Source: Halomonas alkalisoli (GTDB lineage: Bacteria; Pseudomonadota; Gammaproteobacteria; Pseudomonadales; Halomonadaceae). From it: a DNA stretch of 64,000 bases. Of the stretch, positions 46,469 to 62,070 are shown piece after piece. How positions within the stretch are numbered: position 1 is the first letter of the stretch; each line of letters starts with the position of its first letter. The stretch covers positions 62,001 to 126,000 of the forward strand of contig NZ_JAKCMI010000029.1 of NCBI RefSeq assembly GCF_021412585.1, read 5' to 3'. The position numbers and the translations under genes are program-made. The notes beneath the pieces are model-generated. The model saw only the letters and a list, made by a program, of their open reading frames with translations, was not told the DNA's origin and did not search any database.

Positions 46469-46510
46469 GGTGATGCTGTAGCCACTTCTGTTTAACGTTC
46501 TGTGTTGCCC

Positions 46511-46550
46511 GATGTCCTGCCTATGGTGATAGGCAGGACATCTTTTTTTT
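46511..46550 (+). terminator. Strong intrinsic terminator of the nap operon
   Basis: Perfect 14-bp stem GATGTCCTGCCTAT/ATAGGCAGGACATC with a 4-base loop, followed directly by eight T residues. Confidence 0.95.
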
Positions 46551-46561
46551 CGGCTATTAGT

Positions 46562-46603
46562 TGTCCATTTGGTCGACGGATAAAAAATCCAGATTGGACA
46601 TTT
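46562..46603. promoter_or_regulatory. Candidate operator upstream of the ABC/hydroxyquinol operon
   Basis: The 160 bases between the nap terminator and the binding-protein gene hold no gene. TGTCCA (46562-46567) and TGGACA (46595-46600) form an inverted repeat spaced about three helical turns. The right arm lies in CCAGATTGGACATTT (46589-46603), which matches 12 of 15 bases of a site at 60110-60124. GGAT/ATCC with an AAAAA centre lies between the arms. Confidence 0.45.
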
Positions 46604-46710
46604 CTCTTCATGAGCTGCATTGCACCGTCTTGGTGCCGAAGCCTAAGCTCCTCCTTCCTACCTGCTAAAAGAAGCAGGGGACAAATAAGTATTAAAACAA
46701 GGAGAGAGAG

Positions 46711-47664
46711 ATGGCTATAAATAATACCCTGAAAATGAGTGTGCTGGCTGCTTCGGTCTTCGTGGCATCGACTACAGTAGCGTACGCGGAAAATTCCTAC
46801 CGGATCGGTATTACCCAGAACAACGTCGGCGTCGACAGCTACCAGACGACCTATGAAAGGGCTTTCGTGGAAGCCGCGGAGGCCGCTGGTAATATCGATA
46901 TCGTGGTGCTGGACGCCGGGGGCGATGTGGCGCGCCAGATCGGCCAGATGCAGGACCTCGTCCAGCAGCAGGTTGACGCCATCATCATCTGGCCGACCAA
47001 TGGTCAGGCGGTCATTCCCGCCATTCGCCAGGCAAACAATGCGGGTATTCCGGTCGTCGTGACCAACTCAAAAATTGCCGATGCCGGCATGGATTTCATC
47101 GCGGCGTTTTCAGGCCCCGATAACGTAGAACAGGGTTCTTCTTCGGCCGAGATGATGTGCGATGCCTTGGGTGGAGAAGGACAGATCGTGCAGATTTCCG
47201 GTCAGCCGGGCTATACCACCGCCATCGAGCGCGCTGCCGGGTTTGAGGAGCGGCTTGCCGAACTCTGTCCCGGTGTCGAACTGATGGAAACCCAGCCAGG
47301 CAACTGGAATCGTGAGCGGGCGCAACGTGTCATGGAAGACTTCCTCACCAAGTACGACCGTATCGACGGCGTCTATTCCGGGGACGACAACATGGGGGTT
47401 GGCGCCCTGAATGCTGCCAAGGACGCTGGTCGCGCCGGCGATATCGTGTTCATTGGTGCCACCAACTTCGCCGTAGGCTATGACGCCATTGCACGCGGTG
47501 AGTACTACGGCTCCATCTACCAGTCCCCGGTGGATGATGCTCATGCGGCGCTGCAGACAGCGTTGGACGTACTGGCCGGTGAGGATGTCCCCAAGCTCAA
47601 CTTCTTCGAGACGCCGAAGATCACCGCCGAGAACCTGGAAGAGTTCGACCGTCCGGTCTTCTGA
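46711..47664 (+). CDS. Ribose-type ABC transporter substrate-binding protein
   Basis: 317-residue periplasmic binding protein of the Peripla_BP_4 (RbsB-like) family. The signal peptide ends at VAYAENS. Typical features are the YRIGITQNN first strand, IIIWPTNGQAVIPAIRQANNAGIPVVVTNS and a hinge DGVYSGDDNMGVGAL. AAGGAGAGAGAG precedes the ATG. Two permeases and a double ATPase follow. The location ahead of aromatic genes suggests the ligand may be a polyhydroxylated cyclic compound or glycoside, but this is inference. Confidence 0.9.
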   Translation: MAINNTLKMSVLAASVFVASTTVAYAENSYRIGITQNNVGVDSYQTTYERAFVEAAEAAGNIDIVVLDAGGDVARQIGQMQDLVQQQVDAIIIWPTNGQAVIPAIRQANNAGIPVVVTNSKIADAGMDFIAAFSGPDNVEQGSSSAEMMCDALGGEGQIVQISGQPGYTTAIERAAGFEERLAELCPGVELMETQPGNWNRERAQRVMEDFLTKYDRIDGVYSGDDNMGVGALNAAKDAGRAGDIVFIGATNFAVGYDAIARGEYYGSIYQSPVDDAHAALQTALDVLAGEDVPKLNFFETPKITAENLEEFDRPVF

Positions 47665-47777
47665 CGACACGGTGCACTGCTCGGGGCGAGATATTCTTAA
47701 GCGATTTATGCCCGGGCTACAGGACTGGCCTGGGCGCAACCACCCCTGCGCAAGGCCTACCCAAACAGGTGATTAAC

Positions 47778-48788
47778 ATGGCTTCTGCAGAACAAACGAA
47801 ACAGCCGGTCTTGAAGGGAAGAGTTAGCCGCGCGGGTATTCTCGGCTTTCTCTCCGCTCAGGGTATCCTGGTATTCTTTCTTTTAAGCATGTTCGTCTTC
47901 TCATTATTTTCCGAACAGTTTCTATCCCAGTCGAACATCATGACCGTCGTGCGACAAGCGTCGATCATCGGCATCATCGCCGTCGGAGTGACGGTGGTCA
48001 TTATTGGCGGAAACCTGGACCTTTCCGTGGGCTCGATGCTGTCATTCGCCACCGTGCTGGTCGTGGATCTTCATGACAAGATCGGTCCGATGAACGCCAT
48101 CCTGGTGATGTTCGCACTGACCCTGCTTCTCGGCGCCGTGAATGGTTTCCTGGTCGGCCTGATGCGACTCAACTCCCTGATCGTGACGCTGGCCATGCTC
48201 TCCGTCATCCAGGGGTTGGTGTTGATCTACAGCGGTGGCCAGAACGTGGATATCGCCAATCAGGGCGGCACCTGGTTCGCTTTCTTCGGCCGTGGGTATG
48301 TGTTGGGTATCGCGGTGCCGGTGTTGCTGTTCGGCCTGCTGGCCATTCTGGTCCAGTGCCTGATGTCCTACACGGGCTATGGACGGCGTATCTTCGCCGT
48401 CGGTGGCAACCCCATGGCGGCCGTCTACTCAGGCATTCGCAAGAACTGGTGTGTGTTCAGTACCTACCTGATCTCGGCCTTCTGTGTGGCATGCGCCGCT
48501 CTGGTGCTCGGCTCTCGGGTCATGGGCTCCCAGAACAATGTCGGCCAGGGCTACGAGCTGCTGGTGTTGGCCGGCATCATCCTCGGTGGCACCAGCCTGC
48601 TCGGCGGCGCCGGCAGCATCTGGAAGACCGTGATCGGCGTGCTCATCCTGGGGTTCATCCAGAACGGCCTGCTGCTGATGGGCTACCCCTACTACACCCA
48701 GTGGATCGTGACCTGGGTCATCATCATCCTGGCCGTCTGGCTGGACCTCGCCAACAAGCGCAAGCGCTTGCTGACGACCCACTCATGA
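47778..48788 (+). CDS. Ribose-type ABC transporter permease 1
   Basis: 336-residue RbsC-family permease with about 8-10 hydrophobic segments. The motif GVTVVIIGGNLDLSVGSMLSF is the hallmark nucleotide-domain-facing/channel segment of this family, and GRRIFAVGGNPMAAVYSGI is the coupling loop. CAGGTGA lies 7 bases before ATG 47778, which is favoured over an in-frame GTG at 47769. A second, related permease is adjacent, so the channel is probably a heterodimer. Confidence 0.9.
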   Translation: MASAEQTKQPVLKGRVSRAGILGFLSAQGILVFFLLSMFVFSLFSEQFLSQSNIMTVVRQASIIGIIAVGVTVVIIGGNLDLSVGSMLSFATVLVVDLHDKIGPMNAILVMFALTLLLGAVNGFLVGLMRLNSLIVTLAMLSVIQGLVLIYSGGQNVDIANQGGTWFAFFGRGYVLGIAVPVLLFGLLAILVQCLMSYTGYGRRIFAVGGNPMAAVYSGIRKNWCVFSTYLISAFCVACAALVLGSRVMGSQNNVGQGYELLVLAGIILGGTSLLGGAGSIWKTVIGVLILGFIQNGLLLMGYPYYTQWIVTWVIIILAVWLDLANKRKRLLTTHS

Positions 48789-48805
48789 CGCGGAGGGCAT
48801 CACGC

Positions 48806-49765
48806 ATGACTTCAATAAAAGGCTTCTTCCGCGGTAAGGCGGCCATTCAGCCGATCTGGCTCTTCGTCATCGCCATCTTCATCTTCTTCAGCTTCATGTC
48901 GGAGTACTTCCTGTCGCTGGGTAACATCACCAATATCCTGGTCCAGACGTCGACCATCGGCCTGATCGCCTTGGGTATGACCTACGTGATGATCAACGGC
49001 AATATCGACCTCTCGGTGGGCGCGATACTGGGGCTTGCCGCCTCGCTGGCGGTCGGGCTACAGGACCATGGGTTGACCATCGCCATCATCGCGGCGCTGG
49101 CGTCCGGCATGCTGCTCGGGGCGCTCAACGGCCTGGTCGTGTGGAAGACCGGGGTCAACGCCTTCATCGTCACCCTGGGTGCCATGCTGGGTATCCGCGG
49201 GCTGATCTTCCTCTATACCGGCGAGCAGTCCTTCTACTCGATGAACTTCGCCTTCGCCGACTTCGGTGCCAGCACCATTGGGCCGATCCCGGTACTGGCG
49301 ATCATCTTCCTGCTCTGCACCCTGGTGATGCACCTGGTGTTGACCCGCACCGGTCACGGCCGCAATACCTTCGCCGTAGGGGGTAACCCGGAGGCCTCCA
49401 TCGATGCCGGCATCCGGCTCGGTCGCCACATGATGATCAACTTCATCATCGTCGGTTTCTTTGCCGCACTGGCCGGCGTCCTGCTGGCCAGCCAGATGGG
49501 TGCGGCCACTCCCAATCTCGGGCGTGACTACGAGCTGTGGACCATCACCGCGGTGGTGCTCGGCGGCACCAAGCTGACCGGCGGCTACGGCAGCATCACC
49601 GGCACCCTCGGCGGCGTCTTGGCCATCGGCATCCTGCGCAACGGCATGAACCTGATGCAGGTGCCGGCCTTCTACGTGCTGGTCGTCCTCGGTGTGATCC
49701 TGATCTCGGTGCTGATCATCGACAAGAAACTCAATGTGCCGTCGACCAAGGAGGTGCGGATATGA
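48806..49765 (+). CDS. Ribose-type ABC transporter permease 2
   Basis: 319-residue RbsC-family permease, paralogue of the preceding gene. It has the same GMTYVMINGNIDLSVGAILG and GRNTFAVGGNPEASIDAGI motifs. The ATG at 48806 has GGAGG upstream; an ATG at 48785 overlapping the previous stop lacks a ribosome site. The stop overlaps the ATPase start by 4 bases, indicating coupled translation. Confidence 0.9.
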   Translation: MTSIKGFFRGKAAIQPIWLFVIAIFIFFSFMSEYFLSLGNITNILVQTSTIGLIALGMTYVMINGNIDLSVGAILGLAASLAVGLQDHGLTIAIIAALASGMLLGALNGLVVWKTGVNAFIVTLGAMLGIRGLIFLYTGEQSFYSMNFAFADFGASTIGPIPVLAIIFLLCTLVMHLVLTRTGHGRNTFAVGGNPEASIDAGIRLGRHMMINFIIVGFFAALAGVLLASQMGAATPNLGRDYELWTITAVVLGGTKLTGGYGSITGTLGGVLAIGILRNGMNLMQVPAFYVLVVLGVILISVLIIDKKLNVPSTKEVRI

Positions 49766-51321
49766 ATCCCGTCCAAGCCATTACTGGCCGCCAACCGATC
49801 GACGCCGAGCCGATCCTGAAGCTCGAAGGCATCACCAAGCGCTTCCCCGGGGTGGTGGCCCTCAACAAGGTCGACTTCGATGTGCGCCCCGGCGAAGTCC
49901 ATGCCCTGCTCGGCGAGAACGGCGCCGGGAAGTCGACCCTGATGAAGGTGCTGGCCGGCAAGCATCAGGCCAACGAGGGCAGGATCATTCTCGGTGGTGA
50001 GGAGATGGAGTTCGAGAACCCCAAGCATGCCAAGCGGGCCGGGGTCGTGCTGATCCACCAGGAGCAGTCGTTGGTCCCGGAGATGACGGTGGCCGAGAAC
50101 ATCTACCTCGGCAGCCTGCCGAAGAAGTGGGGCAACCGAGTCGACTGGCGCAGGTTGCGCGAGGACACCAACCGGATCCTCGAGACCCTCAAGTGCAGCT
50201 TCCAGCACGATGACCTGGTGGGTTCGCTGTCGATCGCCAAGAAGCAGATGGTCGAGATCGCCCGGGCGCTGGTCTTCACCCCGCGGGTGGTGGTGTTCGA
50301 CGAGCCGACCGCCTCGCTCACCGACCACGAGAAGCCGGTGCTCTACGACGTGATCCAGTCGCTCTGCGAGCAGGGCGTGGGGATCGTCTACATCTCGCAC
50401 CGCATGGACGAGATATTCCACCTGTCACATCGCATTTCGGTGCTGCGCGATGGCGAGTACACCGGCACGGTGAATACCTGTTCGACCAACGAGGACGAGG
50501 TCACGCGGATGATGATCGGCCGCAGCCTGGAGCTCGACCATGCCAGCAAGCCGAGCGAGTTTGGTGAAAACATGCTCGAACTGCGCAATCTCTCGGTCAA
50601 GCGGCTGTTCACGGATGTCAGTCTTAACGTCCGCAGGGGCGAGATCATCGGCATGTATGGCCTGGTGGGGGCAGGGCGTTCGGAGGTCGCCGAGACCATC
50701 TTTGGCCTGCGCTCTCCTTCGGGTGGAGAAATCCTGCTGGATGGCGAAGTGGTGAACTTTCGTAACTCCCACGATGCCGTTGTCGCGGGTATCGCCCTGG
50801 TGCCGGAGGATCGCAAGGACCAGGGGCTGATCCTGGGCATGAACTGCCGCGACAACATGACCCTGGCTGGGCTGAAAACAGTCTCCACGATGGGTTTCAT
50901 GAAGCGTGCCGATGAGCGTGCCGTCTACGACAAGTACCACCAGGCGATGAAGATCAAGACACCCAGCTGGCGCCAGAAGGTCGGCAATCTGAGTGGTGGC
51001 AACCAGCAGAAGATTGTCATCGGCAAGTGGCTGCATACCCATCCCAAGCTGCTGATCCTCGACGAGCCGACCCGCGGGATCGATGTGGGCTCCAAGGCGG
51101 AGATCCACGCCCTGGTCAAGGATCTCGCCAAGTCGGGCTACGCGGTGCTGGTGATCTCCTCGGAGATGCCGGAAGTGCTCGGCCTGAGCAACCGCATCAT
51201 CGCCATGTACGACGGCCGGGTCACCGCCGAGTTCGACGGTGACAGCGTCAGCGAGGACGAGCTGGTGCAGGCGATCACCGGAATGGGCACGCCAACCCCG
51301 GCGGCGGCCGTGATCGGCTAG
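49762..51321 (+). CDS. Ribose-type ABC transporter double ATP-binding protein
   Basis: 519-residue fused ATPase of the RbsA/MglA type. The first domain has Walker A GENGAGKST and signature LSIAKKQM, the second a degenerate Walker A GLVGAGRSE and signature LSGGNQQK. This asymmetry is normal in sugar-type importers, where one site is non-hydrolytic. The overall order binding protein, permease, permease, ATPase differs from the common RbsDACB order. Confidence 0.93.
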   Translation: MNPVQAITGRQPIDAEPILKLEGITKRFPGVVALNKVDFDVRPGEVHALLGENGAGKSTLMKVLAGKHQANEGRIILGGEEMEFENPKHAKRAGVVLIHQEQSLVPEMTVAENIYLGSLPKKWGNRVDWRRLREDTNRILETLKCSFQHDDLVGSLSIAKKQMVEIARALVFTPRVVVFDEPTASLTDHEKPVLYDVIQSLCEQGVGIVYISHRMDEIFHLSHRISVLRDGEYTGTVNTCSTNEDEVTRMMIGRSLELDHASKPSEFGENMLELRNLSVKRLFTDVSLNVRRGEIIGMYGLVGAGRSEVAETIFGLRSPSGGEILLDGEVVNFRNSHDAVVAGIALVPEDRKDQGLILGMNCRDNMTLAGLKTVSTMGFMKRADERAVYDKYHQAMKIKTPSWRQKVGNLSGGNQQKIVIGKWLHTHPKLLILDEPTRGIDVGSKAEIHALVKDLAKSGYAVLVISSEMPEVLGLSNRIIAMYDGRVTAEFDGDSVSEDELVQAITGMGTPTPAAAVIG

Positions 51322-51390
51322 GCGGCTCCGCCGTCATCGCGGCGTCCAGCAGGGCGCCGACATGCATCTTCAACGTCTGAGGAAAGACCC

Positions 51391-52470
51391 ATGCAACCCT
51401 TTGTCTATCATGGCCTGCCATCTCGGGTGGTATTCGGCCAGGGGACCCTGTCGCGCCTCGTCGAGGAAATCGAGCAACTCGGTTGCCGTCGAGCCCTGGT
51501 GCTGGCTACTCCCCAGCAGCAGGAACAGGCCCGAGAGGTGCTGGATCAACTAGGCGAGCGTGGGGTCGGGCTTTATGCCGAGGCAGCCATGCACACGCCG
51601 GTCGAGGTCACCGAGCGCGCCATGCGGGTGGTCGAGGCACTGGGGGTCGACTGCACCGTGGCTATCGGTGGCGGTTCGACCATCGGCCTGGGCAAGGCCA
51701 TCGCGCTGCGCACCGGGCTGCCCCAGGTGGCCATCCCCACGACCTATGCCGGCTCCGAGATGACGCCGATCCTCGGCGAGACCCGTGACGGCATCAAGAC
51801 CACCCAGCGCACCCTGGAGGTGCTGCCCGAGACGGTGATCTACGACGTCGACCTGACCCTCTCGCTGCCCGCCGGGATGTCCGGTACCAGCGGCATCAAT
51901 GCGATTGCCCATGCGGTGGAGGCGCTCTACGCCCGTGACCGCAACCCGGTGATCTCGCTGATGGCAGAAGAGGGCATCGCCGCGCTGGCCAGGAGCCTCA
52001 AAGTGATCGCCTATGACCCCGCCAATGCCGAGGCGCGCGCCGATGCCCTCTATGGCGCCTGGCTGTGCGGTACCTGCCTGGGCTCGGTGGGCATGTCGCT
52101 GCACCACAAGCTCTGCCACACCCTGGGCGGTTCCTTCGACCTGCCCCATGCCGAGACCCACACCATCGTGCTGCCCCATGCGGTGGGCTACAACGCCCCG
52201 GCGGCTCCCGAGGCGATGTCGCGCATCGCCCGGGCCCTGGGCTGCGAAGATCCCGCCGCCGGTCTCTTCGACCTAGCTCGGGCTGTCGGTGCGCCCACGG
52301 CACTGGAGGAGATCGGCCTGCAGGAGAGCGATATCGACCGGGCGACGCAGATCGCCACGAGCAATCCCTACTGGAATCCACGCGAGGTCGAGGCCGAGGG
52401 CATCCATCGCCTGCTGAGCGATGCCTATGCCGGCCGTCGCCCGACGTCGAGGGAGGTGACCGACGTATGA
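51391..52470 (+). CDS. Maleylacetate reductase
   Basis: 359-residue member of the iron-containing alcohol dehydrogenase superfamily, converting maleylacetate to 3-oxoadipate with NAD(P)H. The cofactor motif GGGSTIGLGKAIAL and the conserved IPTTYAGSEMTPI and HHKLCHTLGGSFDLPHAETH-type segments (about 231-250) match maleylacetate reductases such as MacA and TcbF. Finding hydroxyquinol 1,2-dioxygenase three genes downstream strongly supports this call. AGGAAAG precedes the ATG. Confidence 0.92.
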   Translation: MQPFVYHGLPSRVVFGQGTLSRLVEEIEQLGCRRALVLATPQQQEQAREVLDQLGERGVGLYAEAAMHTPVEVTERAMRVVEALGVDCTVAIGGGSTIGLGKAIALRTGLPQVAIPTTYAGSEMTPILGETRDGIKTTQRTLEVLPETVIYDVDLTLSLPAGMSGTSGINAIAHAVEALYARDRNPVISLMAEEGIAALARSLKVIAYDPANAEARADALYGAWLCGTCLGSVGMSLHHKLCHTLGGSFDLPHAETHTIVLPHAVGYNAPAAPEAMSRIARALGCEDPAAGLFDLARAVGAPTALEEIGLQESDIDRATQIATSNPYWNPREVEAEGIHRLLSDAYAGRRPTSREVTDV

Positions 52471-53846
52471 AGACCCTGCTGACCAATGCCACCGTGATCA
52501 CCATGGATCCCGAACTCGGCGATCTGGCCGACAGCCAGGTGCTGGTGGAGGACGACCGGATCCTGGCCGTGGGCCATGACCTGCCGTCGGAGGGGGCCGA
52601 GCGGGTCGACTGCCGCGGCGGCATCCTGATCCCCGGGCTGGTCAACGCCCATATGCATACCTGGCAGACCGCCCTGCGCGGCGTCGCCGCCAACTGGACG
52701 CTGCTGGAGTACTTCCGCCACGTCCACCGTGGCCTGGCAACGCTCTTCACCCCCGATGACATCCATATCGCCACCCGCATGGGTGCGCTCAACCAGCTCA
52801 ACTGCGGCACCACCACCCTGGGTGACTGGTGCCACAACAACCCCACCCCGGAGCATACCGATGCGGCGGTACGCGGTCTCAAGGAGTCCGGCATCCGGGC
52901 GCTGTTCTTCCACGGCTCGCCCAAGCCGGACCCCGAGCCGGGCCAGCCGCACTTCAGCGAGGTCCCGCACCCCCGCGGCGAAGTCGAGCGGCTGATGAAG
53001 GGGGCGCTTGCCGACCCCGAGGGCCGGGTGACCCTGGGGCTGGCCATCCTCGGGCCACATTACTCCACCCTCGAGGTCAGCCTGCAGGATTTCACATTGG
53101 CCAAGGAGTTCGGCCTGGTCGCCTCCATGCACCAGGGTGGCGGTGAGGCTGTCAGCCCCGGCGGCTGGGACGTGATCGAGGAGCGGGGACTGCTGGGGCC
53201 GGACATCAACATCGTTCACGGACAGAGCCTCGACGACGGACAGCTGGCCCGCTTCTGCGAGCAGGGCGTGACCTTCTCCATCGCGCCGGAGAACGAGATG
53301 ACCCAGGGGCATGGCTTCCCGATCACCGGCCACCTGCGCCGGCACGGCGGTGTCGTTTCCCTGGGGGTGGACCTGGAGTCGGTCATCTCCGGTGACATGT
53401 TCTGTGTCGCCCGCATGGCGCTGGGCATGCAGCGGGCACTGGACAACGATGCCTCGCGGCGCGAGCAGGGCAGCATTCCCGACACCTCGACCATCCGCAC
53501 CCGCGAGGCGTTGGCCTGGATCACCGTCGACGGTGCGCGTGCCCTGGGCCTCGAAGCGCGCATCGGTAGCCTGACGCCGGGCAAGCAGGCCGACATCGTG
53601 CTGCTCGATAGCGGCCTCCTGAACATGCAGCCGGTCAGCGACCCGGTCTCGACCGTGGTCATGCAGGCGAGTCTCGCCAACGTCGACAGCGTCATGGTGG
53701 CGGGGGAGTTCCACAAGCGAAACGGCCGGTTGCTGGCGGATGTGGCGGAGGGGGTCAGGCACCTCGACGCCTCCGCTCAGCGGATCTACGGCGAACTGAT
53801 GTCACGGGAACAGGCTTCCCGAGCACAAGGGGAGAGAACCCAATGA
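52467..53846 (+). CDS. Amidohydrolase family protein (deaminase/chlorohydrolase-like)
   Basis: 459-residue metal-dependent hydrolase of the cytosine-deaminase/AtzB/SsnA group. Predicted metal ligands are H62 and H64 (NAHMHT), H222 (SMHQGG), H251 (IVHGQS) and D302 (GVDLES). Family members deaminate or dechlorinate ring compounds or hydrolyse amides. It overlaps maleylacetate reductase by 4 bases and is followed by a dehydrogenase overlapping by 4. Within a hydroxyquinol pathway it is a candidate for an early step such as removal of an amino group, but the substrate is unknown. Confidence 0.8.
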   Translation: MKTLLTNATVITMDPELGDLADSQVLVEDDRILAVGHDLPSEGAERVDCRGGILIPGLVNAHMHTWQTALRGVAANWTLLEYFRHVHRGLATLFTPDDIHIATRMGALNQLNCGTTTLGDWCHNNPTPEHTDAAVRGLKESGIRALFFHGSPKPDPEPGQPHFSEVPHPRGEVERLMKGALADPEGRVTLGLAILGPHYSTLEVSLQDFTLAKEFGLVASMHQGGGEAVSPGGWDVIEERGLLGPDINIVHGQSLDDGQLARFCEQGVTFSIAPENEMTQGHGFPITGHLRRHGGVVSLGVDLESVISGDMFCVARMALGMQRALDNDASRREQGSIPDTSTIRTREALAWITVDGARALGLEARIGSLTPGKQADIVLLDSGLLNMQPVSDPVSTVVMQASLANVDSVMVAGEFHKRNGRLLADVAEGVRHLDASAQRIYGELMSREQASRAQGERTQ

Positions 53847-54778
53847 CCACGACAAGCCCAATGACCACCACAGACAGGGTGGCCTGGATCGGCCTCGGCA
53901 AGCTGGGCCTGCCCATGGCCGAGCGGATCGCTGCGGCGGGTTACCCCGTCCAGGGGTTCGACCTCAGTGCCGAGCGGATGGCGCTTGCCGAGCAGGCCGG
54001 CATCACTTCCCACCGGGCGTTGGCCTCTTCTGTTGAGGACTGCCACCTGGTCTTCGTCTCGATTCCCGATGACCGGGCGCTGCTGGGCCTGACCCTGGGG
54101 CCGGATGGGCTGATCGAGGCGATGGCCCCGGGCAGCGTGCTGATCGAGACCAGCACCGTCAGCATCGAGGCCTCCGCCAGGGTGGCCGCGGCCGCGGACG
54201 CCAGGGGCATCGCCTATCTGCGCAGCCCGGTCTCGGGGAATCCCGTCGCCGCCGAGTCCGGCACCCTGTCGGCCATGGTCTCCGGCCCGCGTGACGCCTT
54301 GGAGGGGGCCGTGCCGGTGATGGCCGCCTTCACCAAGGCCCAGTACTGGCTCGGTGACGAAGAGCAGGCTCGCTACGCCAAGCTGGCGATCAACCTGATG
54401 ATCGCGGTGAGCGCGGGAATGATGGGCGAGGCCCTGGCGATGGCCCGCAAGGGCAACATCGGCTGGGAGGCGATGCTGGACCTGATGGCCGACAGCGCCG
54501 TCGGCTCGCCGATGGTCAAGTACAAGACCCAGCCGCTGAAGGATCGCGACTTCACGTCCACCTTCTCGGCCGCCCAGATGGCCAAGGACCTGGACCTGAT
54601 CCTCGGCTGTGCCCACGGGGACGGTGTTGCCGTGCCCCTGGCCGCTCAGATGCGCGAAGCCTACAGCTCCCTGATCGGCACGGGCCACGGCGAGGAAGAC
54701 TACATCGCCACGATCCACCACACCGAGCGCCTTTCCGGGCTGCCGGCCTTCGAGAGCGCCTCCGGCGCCAGGGGATGA
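53843..54778 (+). CDS. NAD(P)-dependent beta-hydroxyacid dehydrogenase family protein
   Basis: 311-residue oxidoreductase of the 3-hydroxyisobutyrate dehydrogenase superfamily. The Rossmann motif is GLGKLGLPMAERI near the N-terminus, the substrate motif SPVSGNPVAAESGTL replaces the usual DAPVSGG, and the catalytic lysine is in AKLAINLM. It overlaps the amidohydrolase by 4 bases. The changed substrate motif hints at an unusual substrate, perhaps an intermediate specific to this pathway. Confidence 0.85.
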   Translation: MTTTSPMTTTDRVAWIGLGKLGLPMAERIAAAGYPVQGFDLSAERMALAEQAGITSHRALASSVEDCHLVFVSIPDDRALLGLTLGPDGLIEAMAPGSVLIETSTVSIEASARVAAAADARGIAYLRSPVSGNPVAAESGTLSAMVSGPRDALEGAVPVMAAFTKAQYWLGDEEQARYAKLAINLMIAVSAGMMGEALAMARKGNIGWEAMLDLMADSAVGSPMVKYKTQPLKDRDFTSTFSAAQMAKDLDLILGCAHGDGVAVPLAAQMREAYSSLIGTGHGEEDYIATIHHTERLSGLPAFESASGARG

Positions 54779-54782
54779 CGAG

Positions 54783-55646
54783 ATGCGAAACCTTAACGCC
54801 GTGAACATCACGGATGCCGTGATCGAGCAGTTTGCCGGCTGTCGTGACGAGCGCCTGAAACAGGTGTTGAACAGCCTGGTTACCCACTTGCATGCCTTCA
54901 TCCGCGACGTGGAGCCCAGCGAACAGGAGTGGACCGATGCCATCGACTTCCTGACCCGGACCGGCCAGATGTGCGACGACAAGCGGCAGGAGTTCATCCT
55001 GCTCTCAGATACCCTGGGCGTGACGATGCTGGTCGATGCCATCAATCACCAGACCTCGGACCCCATGGTCTCCGAGAGCACGGTGCTGGGCCCCTTCTAT
55101 GTGGCCGACCCGCCCGAGGCCGCCCAAGGAGAGGCGATCGACTGGAACGTCGAGGGGGAGCCCTTCTTCGTGGAGGGGCGGGTGCACGATGCGCGCGGTG
55201 AGCCACTGGCCAATGTCGTGGTCGATGTCTGGCAATCGGACAGCGAAGGGTTCTACGACGTCCAGAAGGAGCTGGAGAGTGCCTCGCTGAGGGCCAGGTT
55301 TACCACCGATGCCCAGGGGCGCTATGCCTTCTGGACGGTGACCCCCTCACCCTACCCGATCCCCACCGACGGCCCGGTCGGCAAGATGCTGGAAATCACT
55401 GGTCGACACCCTTACCGGCCCGCCCATGTGCACTTCATGCTGATGGCCGAGGGATACGAGACCCTGGTGACCCAGGTCTTCGCCGAGGACGACCCCTACC
55501 TCGACTCCGATGCCGTCTTCGGCGTCAAGGATTCCCTGGTCAGGGAGTATGAACTGCTGCCTCCAGGAAGCGCACCGGATGGACGGTCGATGGAAGTCCC
55601 CTTCCGCCATCTGACATACGACTTCGGCCTCAAGGCGAGCCGCTAG
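54783..55646 (+). CDS. Hydroxyquinol 1,2-dioxygenase (intradiol)
   Basis: 287-residue non-haem Fe(III) dioxygenase cleaving hydroxyquinol (1,2,4-benzenetriol) to maleylacetate. Iron ligands Y158, Y191, H215 and H217 (RPAHVHFM) are in place, and the N-terminal alpha-helical dimer domain is present. ESTVLGPFYV and YPIPTDGPVG are typical of the hydroxyquinol/chlorocatechol branch. It works directly with the maleylacetate reductase upstream. An 18-bp tandem repeat begins 9 bases after the stop codon. Confidence 0.92.
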   Translation: MRNLNAVNITDAVIEQFAGCRDERLKQVLNSLVTHLHAFIRDVEPSEQEWTDAIDFLTRTGQMCDDKRQEFILLSDTLGVTMLVDAINHQTSDPMVSESTVLGPFYVADPPEAAQGEAIDWNVEGEPFFVEGRVHDARGEPLANVVVDVWQSDSEGFYDVQKELESASLRARFTTDAQGRYAFWTVTPSPYPIPTDGPVGKMLEITGRHPYRPAHVHFMLMAEGYETLVTQVFAEDDPYLDSDAVFGVKDSLVREYELLPPGSAPDGRSMEVPFRHLTYDFGLKASR

Positions 55647-55654
55647 TTGCATCG

Positions 55655-55759
55655 CAAGACGAAGCCATCCAGCAAGACGAAACCATCCAGCAAGACGAAA
55701 CCATCCAGCAAGACGAAACCATCCAGAAAGACGAAACCATCCAGAAAGAGGAAAGCAAC
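55655..55759. repeat. 18-bp tandem repeat (five full copies) before the nitroreductase gene
   Basis: The unit is close to CAAGACGAAACCATCCAG, with full copies at 55655, 55673, 55691, 55709 and 55727 and a partial one to 55759. Each is 6 codons. In the frame of the dioxygenase it stays open after the TAG stop (55644-55646), encoding a KTKPSS-type repeat to the TGA at 55761. The last partial copy supplies AGAGGAAA, the ribosome site of the next gene. Confidence 0.95.
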
Positions 55760-56350
55760 ATGACGATCATCGACAACAAGGCGGTCGAGACCCTGTTTAC
55801 CGAGGCACGTACCCATAACGTGTGGCAGGACCAGGAGGTCAGCGAGGAAAAACTGCGCGAGCTGTATGACCTGCTGCATTTCGGCCCGACCTCCATGAAC
55901 TGCCAGCCCCTTCGCGTGCTCTTCCTGAAGAGCGAGGCGGCCAAGGAAAGGCTCAAGCCGGCACTGCTTCCCGGCAACCAGGAGAAGACCATGAAGGCGC
56001 CCGTGGTGGCTGTGCTGGGATACGACACAGAGTTCTACCAGCATCTGCCGCGCATGTTTTCCCACAACAAGGATGCCAAGTCGCTGTTCGAGGGCAAGAC
56101 GGACTTCATCAACACCACGGCCTTCCGCAACAGCTCCATCCAGGGGGGGTATTTCATCCTGGCCGCCCGTGCGGTTGGGCTGAATGCCGGGCCGATGTCC
56201 GGCTTCAACAATGCGGCGGTGGATGAGGAGTTCTTTCCCGATGGCCAGGTGAAGAGCAACTTCCTCTGCAACCTGGGGTACGGCGATGCCTCGGCGCTCT
56301 TCCCGCGCCAGGAACGCTTCGCCTTCGAGGAGGTCTGCGACGTCCTGTGA
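55760..56350 (+). CDS. Nitroreductase family protein, RutE/HadB-like
   Basis: 196-residue FMN-dependent oxidoreductase. Motifs FGPTSMNCQPLRVLFL and the C-terminal NLGYGDASALFPR match the RutE subgroup, known for malonic semialdehyde reduction in uracil breakdown and for some nitro- or halo-aromatic pathways. No other rut genes are nearby. In this operon it may reduce a quinone or nitro group, or an aldehyde side-product. It is the last gene before a terminator. Confidence 0.85.
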   Translation: MTIIDNKAVETLFTEARTHNVWQDQEVSEEKLRELYDLLHFGPTSMNCQPLRVLFLKSEAAKERLKPALLPGNQEKTMKAPVVAVLGYDTEFYQHLPRMFSHNKDAKSLFEGKTDFINTTAFRNSSIQGGYFILAARAVGLNAGPMSGFNNAAVDEEFFPDGQVKSNFLCNLGYGDASALFPRQERFAFEEVCDVL

Positions 56351-56379
56351 TCCCGTCTTTCGGGGGCGACTCCCGGATA

Positions 56380-56405
56380 CCCCATGAGGCACCCCGCTCA
56401 TGGGG
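56380..56405 (+). other. Hairpin after the nitroreductase gene
   Basis: Perfect 9-bp stem CCCCATGAG/CTCATGGGG with an 8-base loop, 30 bases after the stop. It precedes a second hairpin that has a T-tract. Confidence 0.7.
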
Positions 56406-56424
56406 GCAGCATCACCCTCCGCTT

Positions 56425-56451
56425 GGGCCGTGTTCGCTACGGCCCCTTTTT
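56425..56451 (+). terminator. Intrinsic terminator of the hydroxyquinol operon
   Basis: 7-bp stem GGGCCGT/ACGGCCC with a 7-base loop, followed by C and TTTTT. It ends the ten-gene transport and catabolism operon; the permease gene at 56480 is probably transcribed separately or by read-through. Confidence 0.8.
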
Positions 56452-56479
56452 CATAGCCGGTCAGAGAATCGAGGCCCGC

Positions 56480-57217
56480 ATGGTGTACGACTGGCAGTTC
56501 ATTGTATTGATCATCATTGCCGTGCTGATTACCGGGATCTCAAAATCGGGTTTCGCCGGCGGCGTCGGGGTGGTGGCGGTGCCGCTGATCTCGCTGAAGG
56601 CCAGCCCGGCCTTCGCCGTGGCCGTCATGCTGCCTCTGCTGATAGTGATGGATGTCTTCAGCCTCAAGGCCTGGTGGCGCCATCGTGTGGGGGCCGTTCT
56701 GTGGCTGATATTTCCCCCGGCGGTGCTGGGGGTGGTGGTGGGCTACCTGACCTATGGCCGCTTCGATGAGGACCTGCTGAAAGTCCTGCTGGGGGTGTTC
56801 TCGATCCTTTTCGGGCTGTGGGGGCTACTCAAGCCCTTCCGTGGGCGGGTCCTGCCGACCTGGGTCGGTGGGTTGAGTGGCGGTATCGCCGGCTTCACCA
56901 GTTTCATCGCCCATGCCGGGGGACCGCCGCTCAACTTCTATCTGCTGCAGTGCCGGCTCACCAGGGAGCAGTTCCTCGCCACCGCAGTGGTCTTCCTGGC
57001 CGCCACCAATCTGGTCAAGCTGGTGCCCTATGGCATGCTCGGCCTGCTGAACCTCGAGAATCTCACCATTGCACTGTTGCTCATCCCGGTGGCTTGGCTG
57101 GGGGTTCGACTGGGGCTGGTCATACAGCAGCGTCTGAGTGGTGAGCTCTTCTTCCGAATCATTCTGGGCCTGCTGATCGTGCTGGGCATTCGCCTGATCG
57201 TCGACGGCTGGGGATAG
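56480..57217 (+). CDS. TauE/SafE family permease (TSUP)
   Basis: 245-residue membrane protein with about 8 hydrophobic segments. GISKSGFAGGVGVVAVPLISL and the second GGLSGGIAGFTSFIAHAGGPP are the paired motifs of the sulfite/organosulfur exporter family TSUP. The ATG at 56480 has GAGG upstream. In a catabolic cluster it may export a small sulfonate, sulfite or organic anion. That would fit a sulfonated aromatic substrate, but nothing else here shows sulfur metabolism. Confidence 0.85.
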   Translation: MVYDWQFIVLIIIAVLITGISKSGFAGGVGVVAVPLISLKASPAFAVAVMLPLLIVMDVFSLKAWWRHRVGAVLWLIFPPAVLGVVVGYLTYGRFDEDLLKVLLGVFSILFGLWGLLKPFRGRVLPTWVGGLSGGIAGFTSFIAHAGGPPLNFYLLQCRLTREQFLATAVVFLAATNLVKLVPYGMLGLLNLENLTIALLLIPVAWLGVRLGLVIQQRLSGELFFRIILGLLIVLGIRLIVDGWG

Positions 57218-57297
57218 CTGCGTTGGCGTCGCGTTTGCTGCCGGACGTGAGGCGGCGCTATCTTGGTGCACTACCCTCTTCCTGCCATGAGGCGAAC

Positions 57298-59070
57298 ATG
57301 AGCGACCTCCCCGACGAGAGGCATCCGGAGGGCCCCTATGATCGGCTGTCCCAGACGCCGATGCCGAAGCTTTCCAATACGGAACTCTCGCGCTTCATCG
57401 ACTTCATCGAGAAGTTCGAGGAGGAAACCGAGCACTCGCTCTCCCTGAGCCACGGCTACCGGGAGATGCGCATGATGCTGCATATCATGCGCAACCACCT
57501 GGCCGGCCGACTGACGACGCCCACCTCGCTGGCGGATGCATCCGGGCTCTCCTACGGCACCGCCAAGCGCGGGATAGAGAGCATCATCCAACGCGGGCTG
57601 ATCCTGTCACGCCCCAGGACGAAATCGGGCAAGACCGTCTCGCTGCATCCCTCGCCGATGATGATCGAGGAGTGGGAGAGCTATGCCCACCGGATCAAGG
57701 GCCTCCTGGGCCCCCTGTTCGGTGTGGATCCGGCCTCGGACACTGGCCGACGGATCTTCCTCGAGCCTGATGCGAAAAATCGCGTGATCTCGCCGCCGGC
57801 GGTGCTGTCGGCACGGCTCGAACTGAAGGGTGGGCTGCGTGGGCTGATCCACGCCGACCCCACCTTCATGGCGATGCATAACCTGAAGCAACAGCTGGAA
57901 TCCATCTTCGGCCTGGAGATTCATAACTCTGCCAGGTCGATCGACGACCTGCTCGAGGCGATCCTGGCCAACGCGGGCCGGACCAGGTCCCGCTATGACC
58001 TGGTGGCCTGCGACCTTCCCTGGTTCGGCGAACTGGCGTCGAAGGGTATCCTGATGCCCCTCGACGGCTTCATTCGGCGTGATGGCTACGATCTCACTGA
58101 TTTCCACCCGGTTGCCGTTCAGAGCACGCAATACGCTGGACGGCAATACGGTATTCCCCTGCAGACCACGCCGGAGCTGCTCTGTTATCGCAAGGATATC
58201 CTCGAGCAGGCACAGCTTGAGCCCCCGACAACGACCGAGGGACTGGTCAAGGTGGCCAGGCGGTTGCACGATCCCGCCCGGGGGCGGTATGGCATTGCCT
58301 GGAATGCTGCGCGAGGAACGCCGCTGGGCCATACCTTCAGTTTCCTGATGGCCAAGTTCGGCCAGCCGATCATCAATCTCCGCCCCTGCGATGGAGGCTA
58401 TGACTTTCAGCAGGCGTCCGGGGAAGAGCTGCGACCAATGTTCCTGTCGGATGCCGCCTTTCGGGCCTGCGAATACATGCTGGATATCCTCAAGTACTCC
58501 CCTCCCAATATCCTCAACATGGCATGGTACGAGCGGGCCCAGTCCTATGCCGCCGGCGAATCCTGCATGGCCTACTGCTACACGCTGCTGGCCCCGCTTA
58601 TCGAGTTCGATCGGGAGTCACCGGCCTGGGGGAAGACCGGTTATCTGCCACACCCTATCGGTAATCATGGCCGTCCGATCACCCCGATCGGGGGCTATGC
58701 CCTGGCCATCCCCGCCAACCTGTCCGATGAACGTGTCGAGGCTGCCTGGACGGCCCTGCGCCACCTGACCTCGGCCAACATGTCCAAGCTCTATATCCTG
58801 AACGGCAGCCTGGTAACCCCGCGTTTCAGCGTTAGCCAGGACCCTGAAGTTTCGGCACTGTCGCCGCTGATCGAGATTGTGGATGGCATGGCAAGGAAAG
58901 ATATCCTGCAGGCATGGCCGCGGCCCCCGGTGCCGGGCATCACGGACCTGATCAGTATCGCCGGGCACGAGATCTTCGAGGTGCTGGATGGACGGCGCTC
59001 CATCAAGAAGGCCCTGTCCATGGCGCAGGACAGGGCCGATCGGGTGATGCGAGACAGGGGCTACTACTGA
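57298..59070 (+). CDS. Winged-helix regulator fused to an ABC-type solute-binding domain
   Basis: 590-residue protein with no signal peptide or membrane segment. Residues about 50-118 look like a winged helix-turn-helix (LTTPTSLADASGLSYGTAKRGIESIIQRGLI-type helix pair at about 72-102, then a basic wing SRPRTKSGK). After a linker, residues about 178-575 match family-1 extracellular solute-binding proteins (RYDLVACDLPWFGELASKGIL, GIPLQTTPELLCYRKD, YAAGESCMAYC, ITPIGGYALAIP). I infer a one-component transcription factor that senses the imported substrate in the cytoplasm. It follows the permease gene by 80 bases. The ATG at 57298 has GAGG upstream. Confidence 0.8.
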   Translation: MSDLPDERHPEGPYDRLSQTPMPKLSNTELSRFIDFIEKFEEETEHSLSLSHGYREMRMMLHIMRNHLAGRLTTPTSLADASGLSYGTAKRGIESIIQRGLILSRPRTKSGKTVSLHPSPMMIEEWESYAHRIKGLLGPLFGVDPASDTGRRIFLEPDAKNRVISPPAVLSARLELKGGLRGLIHADPTFMAMHNLKQQLESIFGLEIHNSARSIDDLLEAILANAGRTRSRYDLVACDLPWFGELASKGILMPLDGFIRRDGYDLTDFHPVAVQSTQYAGRQYGIPLQTTPELLCYRKDILEQAQLEPPTTTEGLVKVARRLHDPARGRYGIAWNAARGTPLGHTFSFLMAKFGQPIINLRPCDGGYDFQQASGEELRPMFLSDAAFRACEYMLDILKYSPPNILNMAWYERAQSYAAGESCMAYCYTLLAPLIEFDRESPAWGKTGYLPHPIGNHGRPITPIGGYALAIPANLSDERVEAAWTALRHLTSANMSKLYILNGSLVTPRFSVSQDPEVSALSPLIEIVDGMARKDILQAWPRPPVPGITDLISIAGHEIFEVLDGRRSIKKALSMAQDRADRVMRDRGYY

Positions 59071-59095: not shown

Positions 59096-59902
59096 TCACT
59101 GCATAATCATGCCGCCGTCGATCATCAGCAACTGGCCGGTCATATAGTCCGATTCCTTGCTCGCAAGGAAGGAGGCTGTGCCGACCACATCTTCAGGATA
59201 GGAGTAGCGCTTCATCAGGATCATCTTCTCGGCGAGTTCGTCCATGGATTGACCCTGCTTGTCGAACTTGCCGATGCTGACCAGGTCCTTGTCAAGCTGC
59301 TCCCAGAGCTCAGTACGTACTACGCCCGGCCCGTAACCATTGACAGTAATATTGTGGTCGACCAGTGCCTTGGCGCCACCGTTGATCATGGCCAGCACGG
59401 CGTGCTTGCTGCAGGAGTAGGGCACCACGTCATCGAAGGCCTGGCGGGACAGGATGGAACCCACATTGAGGATCTTGTAGGGACCGTTCTCCTTGCCCTG
59501 CGCGATCATCTGCTTGGCGGCTTCCTGCATGCCGAGCAGGCAGCCCAGGGCATTCACGTCCATGATCTGATGCCAATTCTCTTCGGTAATATCGAGAAAC
59601 ATGAGCGGCTTGTTGATGCCGGCATTGTTGACCATGACGTTGATACTGCCGAAGGCATCGACGGTGGCCTGGACGGCTGCCTTCACCTGGTCTCGCTCGG
59701 TCACGTTGAGCTTGACCGCGATGGCCTTGCCGCCATCCCTGCCATTGATGCGCTTGACGACTTCCTCGCACCCCTCGATGTTGAGGTCAGCTACGCAGAC
59801 ATTCGCGCCTTGCTCGGCATAGTGTTCTGCGACCGCTGCCCCCATCCCTCGGGCTGCACCGGTGATAAGGCAGTTCTTTCCCGTGAGTCGATTATTGTCC
59901 AT
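59096..59902 (-). CDS. Short-chain dehydrogenase/reductase
   Basis: 268-residue classical SDR. The cofactor motif TGAARGMG is at 14-21 and the catalytic S149, Y162 and K166 are in GSILS and PYSCSK. An aspartate after strand 2 (ADLN) suggests NAD preference. It resembles polyol or sugar dehydrogenases, though the substrate is not certain. It is convergent with the fused regulator. The ATG at 59902 matches the SDR start; codons upstream to 59950 are probably untranslated. Confidence 0.88.
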   Translation of the reverse strand: MDNNRLTGKNCLITGAARGMGAAVAEHYAEQGANVCVADLNIEGCEEVVKRINGRDGGKAIAVKLNVTERDQVKAAVQATVDAFGSINVMVNNAGINKPLMFLDITEENWHQIMDVNALGCLLGMQEAAKQMIAQGKENGPYKILNVGSILSRQAFDDVVPYSCSKHAVLAMINGGAKALVDHNITVNGYGPGVVRTELWEQLDKDLVSIGKFDKQGQSMDELAEKMILMKRYSYPEDVVGTASFLASKESDYMTGQLLMIDGGMIMQ

Positions 59903-60098
59903 CGTTTCGCCCTTTATAGTGTTTAAAGAATTCATGGCGCAGGCCATCAAATTCTGGGTTGGTGTCAGTTGGAGCCAGCCATCACTAAGCTGTTGACCCA
60001 GCGATTTATTGCGAAGAAGCCAGCGGAGATGAACAGCTGCCTGGCTTGCTGAACTGCATTGTCGGTGGGGCGGTGGGGAAAGCGACAGGTCGTGAGCG

Positions 60099-60124
60099 GG
60101 TCAATCTGACCAGTTTGGATGTTT
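60099..60124. promoter_or_regulatory. Candidate operator in the SDR/AEC intergenic region
   Basis: The 289 bases between the SDR start and the AEC stop contain no gene. They hold GGTCA-ATC-TGACC (60099-60111), which runs into CCAGTTTGGATGTTT (60110-60124), a 12/15 match to a site upstream of the ABC operon. It lies about 200 bases upstream of the SDR start. Confidence 0.4.
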
Positions 60125-61245: not shown

Positions 61246-62070
61246 TCAACTGATGTTGGTGCGTATCTCGCAGGCCTTCTGCTGAAGCAGCGGCAGGTAC
61301 TCCTTCATCAGAGTGTCGAGATCCACCCGCGCGGCATTGGTGCTGATATTGATGGCGCCCAGCAGCTTGCCGTTGGCATCGAAGGCCGGCACGGCAATGG
61401 AGCGCAGCCCCGAGTCCAGTTCCTGGTCGGCGATGGCATAGCCCTGCTGGCGCACCTTGAGGATGCATTGCCTGAGTTCGGCCTTGTCGGTAATCGTCTT
61501 CTCGGTGTGGCGTTCGAGTACCACACCCTCGAGCCAGGCATCCAGCTCATTGTCTGGCAATTGGGCCAGCAGTGCGCGCCCCATGGAGGTGTGGGCCGCG
61601 GGCAGGCGCGTGCCCACCGAGAGGGTGATGGCCATCAGCCGGTGCCGCGAAGCGGAGCGGGCCACGTAGGTGACGTCGTTGCCATCAAGCACACCCAGTG
61701 ACGAGGACTCGCCGCACTCGGCGGTGATGTCCTCGAGGACTTGCTGAATCACACTGCGATAATTGTTGGCGGAGAGAAAAGCATAGCCAAGCTGCAGCAC
61801 CTTCGGGGCAAGCTCGAAGTGCCGCTGCTGCTTCCGTACGTAGCCCAAAGCATGCAGCGTCAGCAGGAAGCGGCGTGCCTTGGCCCGGTTCATCCCGGTT
61901 CGGGCAGCTACTTCGCTCAGGGTCATGCGTGGGTTTGCTTCGTCAAAGGCGAGTATCACCTCGAGACCGCTGGCCAAGGCGGTGATGAAATCGCGATCGT
62001 CTGTGCTTAGAGCGTCTTCCTGTGCTGCCTTTTCCATCCCGTATTGTCCTAAGTCTCGGTCGCTCGTCAT
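61246..62070 (-). CDS. IclR family transcriptional regulator, PcaR/PobR-like
   Basis: 274-residue regulator with an N-terminal winged helix-turn-helix (SGLEVILAFDEANPRMTLSEVAARTGMNRAKARRFLLTLHALGYV-type, about 34-80) and a C-terminal IclR effector domain. This branch (PcaR, PcaU, PobR) controls protocatechuate and beta-ketoadipate genes using beta-ketoadipate as inducer. It is divergent from the CoA-transferase genes, with three PcaR-like boxes in the gap. ATG 62037 (MEKAAQ) is an alternative start. Confidence 0.9.
   Translation of the reverse strand: MTSDRDLGQYGMEKAAQEDALSTDDRDFITALASGLEVILAFDEANPRMTLSEVAARTGMNRAKARRFLLTLHALGYVRKQQRHFELAPKVLQLGYAFLSANNYRSVIQQVLEDITAECGESSSLGVLDGNDVTYVARSASRHRLMAITLSVGTRLPAAHTSMGRALLAQLPDNELDAWLEGVVLERHTEKTITDKAELRQCILKVRQQGYAIADQELDSGLRSIAVPAFDANGKLLGAINISTNAARVDLDTLMKEYLPLLQQKACEIRTNIS

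Follow-up and report, generated by a model that had tools for sequence, protein, structure and literature searches.

Gene locus and domain architecture

The gene at 57298..59070 (+ strand) of the 64-kb window, by which we mean the whole stretch of Halomonas DNA analysed, is an intact open reading frame with an ATG start, encoding a 590 residue protein in which a predicted winged helix-turn-helix (wHTH) is fused to a MalE-type solute-binding protein (SBP) domain. It is preceded on the same strand by a ribose-type ABC importer (46711..51321), comprising an SBP (46711-47664), two permeases (47769-48788 and about 48791-49765) and an ATPase ending at 51321, and by a set of catabolic genes (51391..56350, assigned by sequence reading and NCBIfam), both presumed to belong to the target operon. 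The catabolic set encodes an iron-type dehydrogenase, read from its sequence as maleylacetate-reductase-like, an amidohydrolase, a 2-hydroxy-3-oxopropionate-reductase-like protein, an intradiol dioxygenase and a malonic-semialdehyde reductase. Within this set the NCBIfam cut-off is reached by two models only, one for the amidohydrolase (a subfamily model) and one for malonic semialdehyde reductase. Immediately before the fusion gene an open reading frame (56384..57217, + strand) encodes a membrane protein, read from its sequence as presumably TauE/SafE-like, and on the 3' side lies an SDR dehydrogenase gene (59096..59911, - strand). The original remark that the fusion gene sits beside an importer and catabolic operon is borne out by this gene order. 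Further along the window, 61246-62070 encodes an IclR-type regulator of the PcaR/PcaU/PobR subfamily (299.8 bits, cut-off 284.75), adjoined by a gene that matches 3-oxoacid CoA-transferase weakly (37.8 versus 128.5 bits), and a terminator-like stem-loop (46511-46542, 14 pairs followed by 8 T) separates the importer promoter from the operon before it.

The fusion protein matches Pfam SBP_bac_1 (residues 216-493, E 1.3e-22, 81.7 bits, cut-off 26) and also SBP_bac_8 (E 5.3e-20); a scan of the full-length protein up to E 1 gives nothing beyond these two families and does not call the wHTH, and NCBIfam gives no match above its curated cut-off. SBP_bac_1 is found at E<=1 in 35/35 members of a homologue alignment (A1), and the best 60 of 75 PDB sequence matches all fall in the C-terminal part. 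A longer upstream frame, from a TTG at 57223, is unsupported by the 35 rows of A1 because conservation begins only at residues 10-13.

An AlphaFold2 model of the 590 residue protein, built with A1, has a mean pLDDT of 88.6 and a pTM of 0.85, where the same sequence folded poorly without an alignment (pLDDT 37.3). From the N-terminus the model shows a helix of residues 27-47 (57376..57438, + strand) with a possible role in dimerisation, the wHTH of residues 54-118 (57457..57651, + strand) with helices at 54-69, 75-82 and 86-98 and strands at 102-106 and 114-118, a linker helix of residues 120-140 (57655..57717, + strand), a low confidence linker from about 140 to 160, and from about residue 180 a mixed α/β region that aligns with solute-binding proteins over residues 172-590. 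Within the putative recognition helix T88, A89 and R91 are invariant in all 35 rows of A1.

The sensor domain (residues ~175-590, 57820..59067, + strand) is assigned by Pfam, sequence and fold searches, and as modelled it is a MalE-type Venus-flytrap domain. Its nearest solved fold, in a search that effectively spanned residues 175-590, is 5iai (Z 47.3, rmsd 2.1 Å over 395 residues, 27% identity), which is also closest by sequence (E 2.3e-43); the maltose-, trehalose- and sulfoquinovose-binding proteins are likewise similar, with Z about 37-43 among the matches listed. 5iai is Arad_9887 of Agrobacterium radiobacter, a stand-alone ABC transporter binding protein that differs from the fusion protein in having no DNA-binding domain, and whose ligand we take to be a polyol.

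Profile evidence for the N-terminal domain comes mainly from homologues. MarR_2 matches 19/24 and MarR 12/24 of the members' N-terminal domains at E<=1 (best 1.8e-5), the single-protein bit scores given for both families all being under the cut-offs (12.5 bits for the window protein against MarR_2, cut-off 27), while HTH_IclR exceeds the Pfam curated cut-off in one divergent member (L110, residues 44-79, 31 versus 22 bits). An HTH-profile sequence search gave weak matches only, the best (E 0.013) to a MarR/SlyA protein. The likeness to MarR- and IclR-type winged helices is confined to this domain, the rest of the fusion protein being unrelated to them. Mean column identity is 62% in the N-terminal domain (24 rows) compared to 64% for the whole protein (A1). 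The DNA-binding-like N-terminus and MalE-type C-terminus originally read from the sequence are thus recovered as the AlphaFold2 wHTH at 54-118 and the SBP_bac_1 match in Pfam, and the structure prediction that had been proposed as a check, with a wHTH at about residues 50-118 plus an SBP_bac_1 domain, returned both parts in the model and the fold search.

The N-terminus of the fusion protein is not hydrophobic: in the first 60 residues the highest 11-residue hydropathy is 0.45 (Kyte-Doolittle) compared to 2.26 in the importer's own SBP, and none of 83 homologues, for which we chose the start codons, exceeds 2.0 near the N-terminus. By this measure, which is hydropathy rather than a signal-peptide predictor, the protein lacks an export signal, as was first proposed, and the sensor is therefore expected to be in the cytoplasm. 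A predicted DNA-binding domain and an SBP-fold sensor are accordingly found in one protein without an export signal, and the signal required of an exported importer SBP is absent.

Occurrence of the family and origin of the sensor

Scanning the genome contigs of bacteria and archaea yielded 79 homologous fusion loci, nearly all full length and 46-93% identical, mainly in Halomonadaceae and Alphaproteobacteria, with hosts including Halomonas, Vreelandella, Billgrantia, Onishia, Marinobacterium, Natronospirillum, many Rhodobacteraceae, Rhizobiales, and SAR116 and its relatives. Both the DNA-binding and sensor parts are still present in relatives at ~25% identity. Plasmid records add 34 further members (25-58% identity, query coverage 87-99%), labelled 'extracellular solute-binding protein' in 26/34, 'ABC-type sugar transport system, periplasmic component' in one and 'hypothetical protein' in one, the others having no listed feature (four) or no annotation (two). 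With its own genome counted, the fusion is present in 6/398 sampled genomes of the phylum and 29/201 of the family (three of the 29 partial), in agreement with the prediction that it is uncommon, yet it is not a one-off; the family is uncommon, widespread and patchy. A search of 299 genomes with the HTH alone found matches in six, four of which are the fusion itself, and the other two (L116, L117) resemble, by eye, response regulators whose winged helix is C-terminal.

Among nine fused SBP domains, pairwise identity is 26-76% over 373-421 residues. These domains match five adjacent MalE-type SBPs weakly, the window protein reaching at best 32% identity over 125 residues (E 4e-12), and with L089, a Halomonas SBP that stands alone, they share 21-29% identity, with E down to 2e-22. 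The idea that the sensor is a local copy of a neighbouring MalE-type SBP is therefore unsupported, as the fused domains are far closer to one another, and in the window the adjacent importer's own SBP is ribose-type, so the sensor was not copied from that protein. These pairwise scores, which are not a tree, suggest a single old fusion that later spread over operons.

Gene neighbourhoods could be compared in 63/79 loci with enough flank (6 kb or more on the upstream side of the fusion gene and 3 kb or more on the downstream side). A ribose-type ABC importer gene lies within 7.5 kb in 60/63; one of the three exceptions (L062) has a MalE-type SBP nearby, plus permease genes by eye. An at least 55% identical copy of the SDR dehydrogenase is present in 50/63. 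Many alphaproteobacterial loci have a 58-82% identical SDR gene upstream, divergent to another ABC importer, and the fusion gene directly follows that importer's last gene. In a third group (e.g. L058, L066, L106) the importers are MalE-type and the neighbouring genes include IolE-like and Gfo/Idh-type ones. In L060 the fusion gene is followed by a DddP-like M24 protein and then a pyruvate-dehydrogenase-like complex; together with an SSADH-like aldehyde dehydrogenase these stand after the fusion gene or its SDR neighbour in both L060:11820-19864 and L105:12609-20995. An intradiol dioxygenase and a maleylacetate reductase are encoded at the loci of the distant members L107 and L109, and across the window (46711-57217), L107, L109 and L111 sugar-type importers, Gfo/Idh or SDR dehydrogenases and an intradiol dioxygenase recur with the fusion gene. 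The recurring genes hint at a putative polyol- or cyclitol-to-hydroxyquinol route.

A palindrome that accompanies the fusion gene

A common palindrome, consensus TRTCCA-N3-TGGAYA, was first noticed on reading the SDR/importer intergenic regions of the alphaproteobacterial loci. Expectation maximisation on 28 of these regions (of 30, after a mild redundancy filter) returned tTTTaTCCAatTTGGAt with a log-likelihood of 246, compared to 68-77 in eight first-order resampled control sets, and a double palindrome spaced 20 bp apart reached 489 compared to 119-131, one locus (L044) being without a good second copy. When the regions are stacked on the motif, its 33 columns carry 0.2-1.3 bits (mean ~0.7, two registers being mixed) and the downstream columns mostly 0-0.4.

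The matrix was then applied to 28 held-out loci, excluding those under 10 kb, the training loci and the Halomonas-type loci. A success was a top match of the whole locus lying between 400 bp before the fusion gene's start and 30 bp inside the gene, or no more than 300 bp beyond its stop. This was seen in 17/28 loci, where 300 column-permuted matrices gave a mean of 2.2 and a maximum of 12 and the window-share expectation is 1.2; several of the loci are close relatives of one another, so the successes are not independent events. Seven loci (L034, L048, L053, L055, L056, L068, L070) are of the training operon type, and among those of other operon types there were 14/21 successes, including L075 at only 8.9 bits. 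The 11 misses are L048, L056, L062, L065, L068, L070, L073 and L107-L110. In some of these the best match is intergenic and close to other cluster genes, as in L048 and L068 (ahead of SDR) and in L107 and L109. Sites are also found in the cluster promoters of L107 and L109, which are members of 25-34% identity. In L098-L104, too short to enter the count, the best matches score 12.4-28.9 bits; locus L096 was set aside. There is no good consensus site in L062, L065, L075, L108 and L110, nor in the short-flank L070.

Just after the fusion stop codon L075 carries the palindrome TGTTC-N5-GAACA and L065 TTCTCA-N3-TGAGAA, at the place where relatives have consensus operators, and these are possibly altered operators. 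A change of specificity through residue 87, which is A, A and S rather than G in the site-poor L062, L065 and L075, was considered and rejected because L105, L107 and L109 also have A87 yet keep TCCA-N3-TGGA-type sites.

In Halomonas the palindrome takes the form AAATNNCCA-N3-TGGNNATTT. The predicted operator of the window, AAAAATCCAGATTGGACATTT (46583..46603), lies upstream of the importer operon, and a possible second, degenerate copy, TCCATTTGGT (46564..46573), is weak and lacks an equivalent in any of the six other Halomonas promoters inspected. Exact TCCANNNTGGA occurs twice in the 64-kb window, once in the importer promoter (46588-46598), while the bare pattern with one mismatch is not enriched there (30 found, 25.6 expected). 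The matrix learned in alphaproteobacteria ranks the importer promoter first in four of seven Halomonas loci and second in the other three (L093-L095), where a place in what by position is a permease gene outscores it by 0.7-1.2 bits. None of its six best matches in the window stands directly before the fusion gene; the second best, ATCTGACCAGTTTGGAT (60104..60120), is a weaker operator-like site upstream of the SDR gene, and resembling sites are found upstream of SDR in L001, L008 and L014.

A Halomonadaceae pattern, AAATNNCCANNNTGGNNATTT, was written after seeing the seven Halomonas promoters. Its best match in the 4.87 Mb genome, with one mismatch, is the importer promoter, and seven other places have two mismatches. 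Allowing up to one mismatch, the site is present in 26/26 Halomonadaceae genomes with an intact gene, four of which (G000, G010, G015, G023) were sources of the pattern and from which three partial-match genomes (G443, G546, G606) of the 29 were left out, compared to 4/26 genomes without the gene, hand-picked from those with no full-length match; none of those four sites is exact. In 25/26 genomes the site is 10,507-10,841 bp upstream of the fusion gene, and in 14 of them it is exact; its placement in the importer promoter follows from direct reading in seven loci and is deduced from the distance in the others. In the remaining genome (G516) the fusion gene and sites are on separate contigs. 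Another site in G010 stands about 1 kb past the fusion gene, the expected position of the SDR promoter. In one sister genus several genomes carry 1-5 additional sites at other places, and in G495 one exact site falls outside the locus. The reversed control pattern matches 8/52 genomes, at up to four places. Because the loci are orthologous across the Halomonadaceae, these sites are not independent events; it is the variety of operons in the held-out test that lends independent weight.

Proposed mode of action

The predicted wHTH, the absence of an export signal and a palindrome that tracks the gene (17/28 held-out loci; 26/26 versus 4/26 genomes) together uphold the original reading as a one-component regulator, which is made much stronger by the palindrome travelling with the gene. 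The fusion protein is probably a cytoplasmic one-component regulator that uses a TRTCCA-N3-TGGAYA operator. The winged helix, probably as a dimer, would bind this site in the promoter of the neighbouring importer/catabolic operon; the Venus flytrap would remain in the cytoplasm and close on a small solute, presumably polyol- or sugar-like, or on an early metabolite, and closure would alter the DNA-bound dimer. Direct sensing of the imported ligand, as first suggested, is plausible. The fusion gene stands at the end of, or adjoins, the operon it presumably controls, so positive feedback could occur.

The direction of control would more probably be activation of the importer/catabolic operon than not, which is favoured because the operator sits upstream of putative promoter elements. 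In the seven Halomonas promoters it precedes, by eye, common TTG-containing and TAAGCT/TAATCT elements; a sigma-70 consensus scan of 46470-46720 found no promoter, so the assignment of -35 and -10 was made by eye. Repression, with ligand-free protein on the operator blocking the importer promoter until ligand releases it, would suit the palindrome, since dimeric repressors use sites of this kind, and many winged-helix regulators of catabolic operons do repress. Against this, the sites precede the putative -35, assigned by eye, in the seven Halomonas promoters and less clearly in alphaproteobacteria, rather than covering the promoter; the importer promoter also looks weak, and we regard a repressor as unlikely. 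The palindrome might instead be owned by another regulator, the fusion protein acting as accessory sensor, since ROK, FCD, LysR, IclR or two-component regulators are present at several loci; but these vary from locus to locus whereas the fusion gene and motif recur together over different operons, down to ~25% identity, making this improbable.

Two further explanations concern the sensor itself. Its position directly after permease genes in many alphaproteobacterial loci would suit an SBP domain that senses transport through contact with the importer or its ATPase, rather than free cytoplasmic solute, although the importer type varies between groups while the fused domains compared stay closest to one another, and such contact is distinctly improbable. 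That the protein is simply an exported SBP, its N-terminal domain not binding DNA, agrees with the strong SBP_bac_1 match and with the 'extracellular' label of most plasmid records; it is at odds with the non-hydrophobic N-terminus, the confidently predicted wHTH, the invariant residues of the putative recognition helix and the palindrome that tracks the gene, and we consider it highly improbable. Taken at its fullest, the regulator reading would describe an old, hitherto undescribed family of bacterial activators in which a cytoplasmic MalE-type flytrap senses the inducer and one operator code, TRTCCA-N3-TGGAYA, serves many operons whose products take up and degrade polyol- or cyclitol-like compounds, some tied to intradiol (hydroxyquinol-type) ring cleavage, hidden until now by the extracellular label; to this whole we give about even chances.

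Relation to known regulators

The design of an HTH joined to a binding-protein fold is already known, and the fusion protein differs from the regulators below in its domain classes. LysR- and LacI-type regulators have periplasmic-binding-protein-fold sensors, of other classes and with other HTH families, and the fusion protein shares this kind of sensor but shows no Pfam match up to E 1 to their HTH or sensor domains. Btr of Bacillus is an AraC-type cytoplasmic regulator with a siderophore-binding, FeuA-type SBP domain, likewise an SBP-type sensor in a cytoplasmic protein, but differing in both its AraC HTH and its SBP class. Fusions of GntR with SBP_bac_1 may occur in Firmicutes; in the open-access literature searched we found no description of these, nor of a MalE-type member of such regulators. 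SgrR and DsvR join an N-terminal HTH to a C-terminal ABC solute-binding-protein domain, SBP_bac_5 (PMC13060122). The fusion protein resembles them in uniting an HTH and a solute-binding-protein domain in one regulator, and differs in having SBP_bac_1/SBP_bac_8 in place of SBP_bac_5. SgrR_N (PF12793) is absent both from the window protein and from the 17 Pfam families matching members, being seen only below threshold in the divergent member L110 (12.7 versus 24 bits), so that neither feature defining the SgrR family, the SBP_bac_5 sensor or the SgrR_N domain, is found in the fusion protein.

If the regulator reading is true, a set of entries named 'extracellular solute-binding protein' are transcription factors whose annotation needs correcting, and the MalE class becomes one more binding-protein fold taken up by regulators. 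Since domains of the MalE type are sugar sensors that are well understood and open to engineering, a natural transcription factor bearing one, with a predicted operator, could provide a ready biosensor scaffold; the operator would also allow regulon prediction for uncharacterised solute-uptake pathways in marine and soil Proteobacteria.

Some genomes carry more than one such gene. From 7843 onward the 12.5 kb contig of L053 encodes a second fusion-like protein, 38% identical and with its own ribose-type importer, and genome G355 has three matches to the full fusion profile; judged by sequence, fusion paralogues with separate operons exist.
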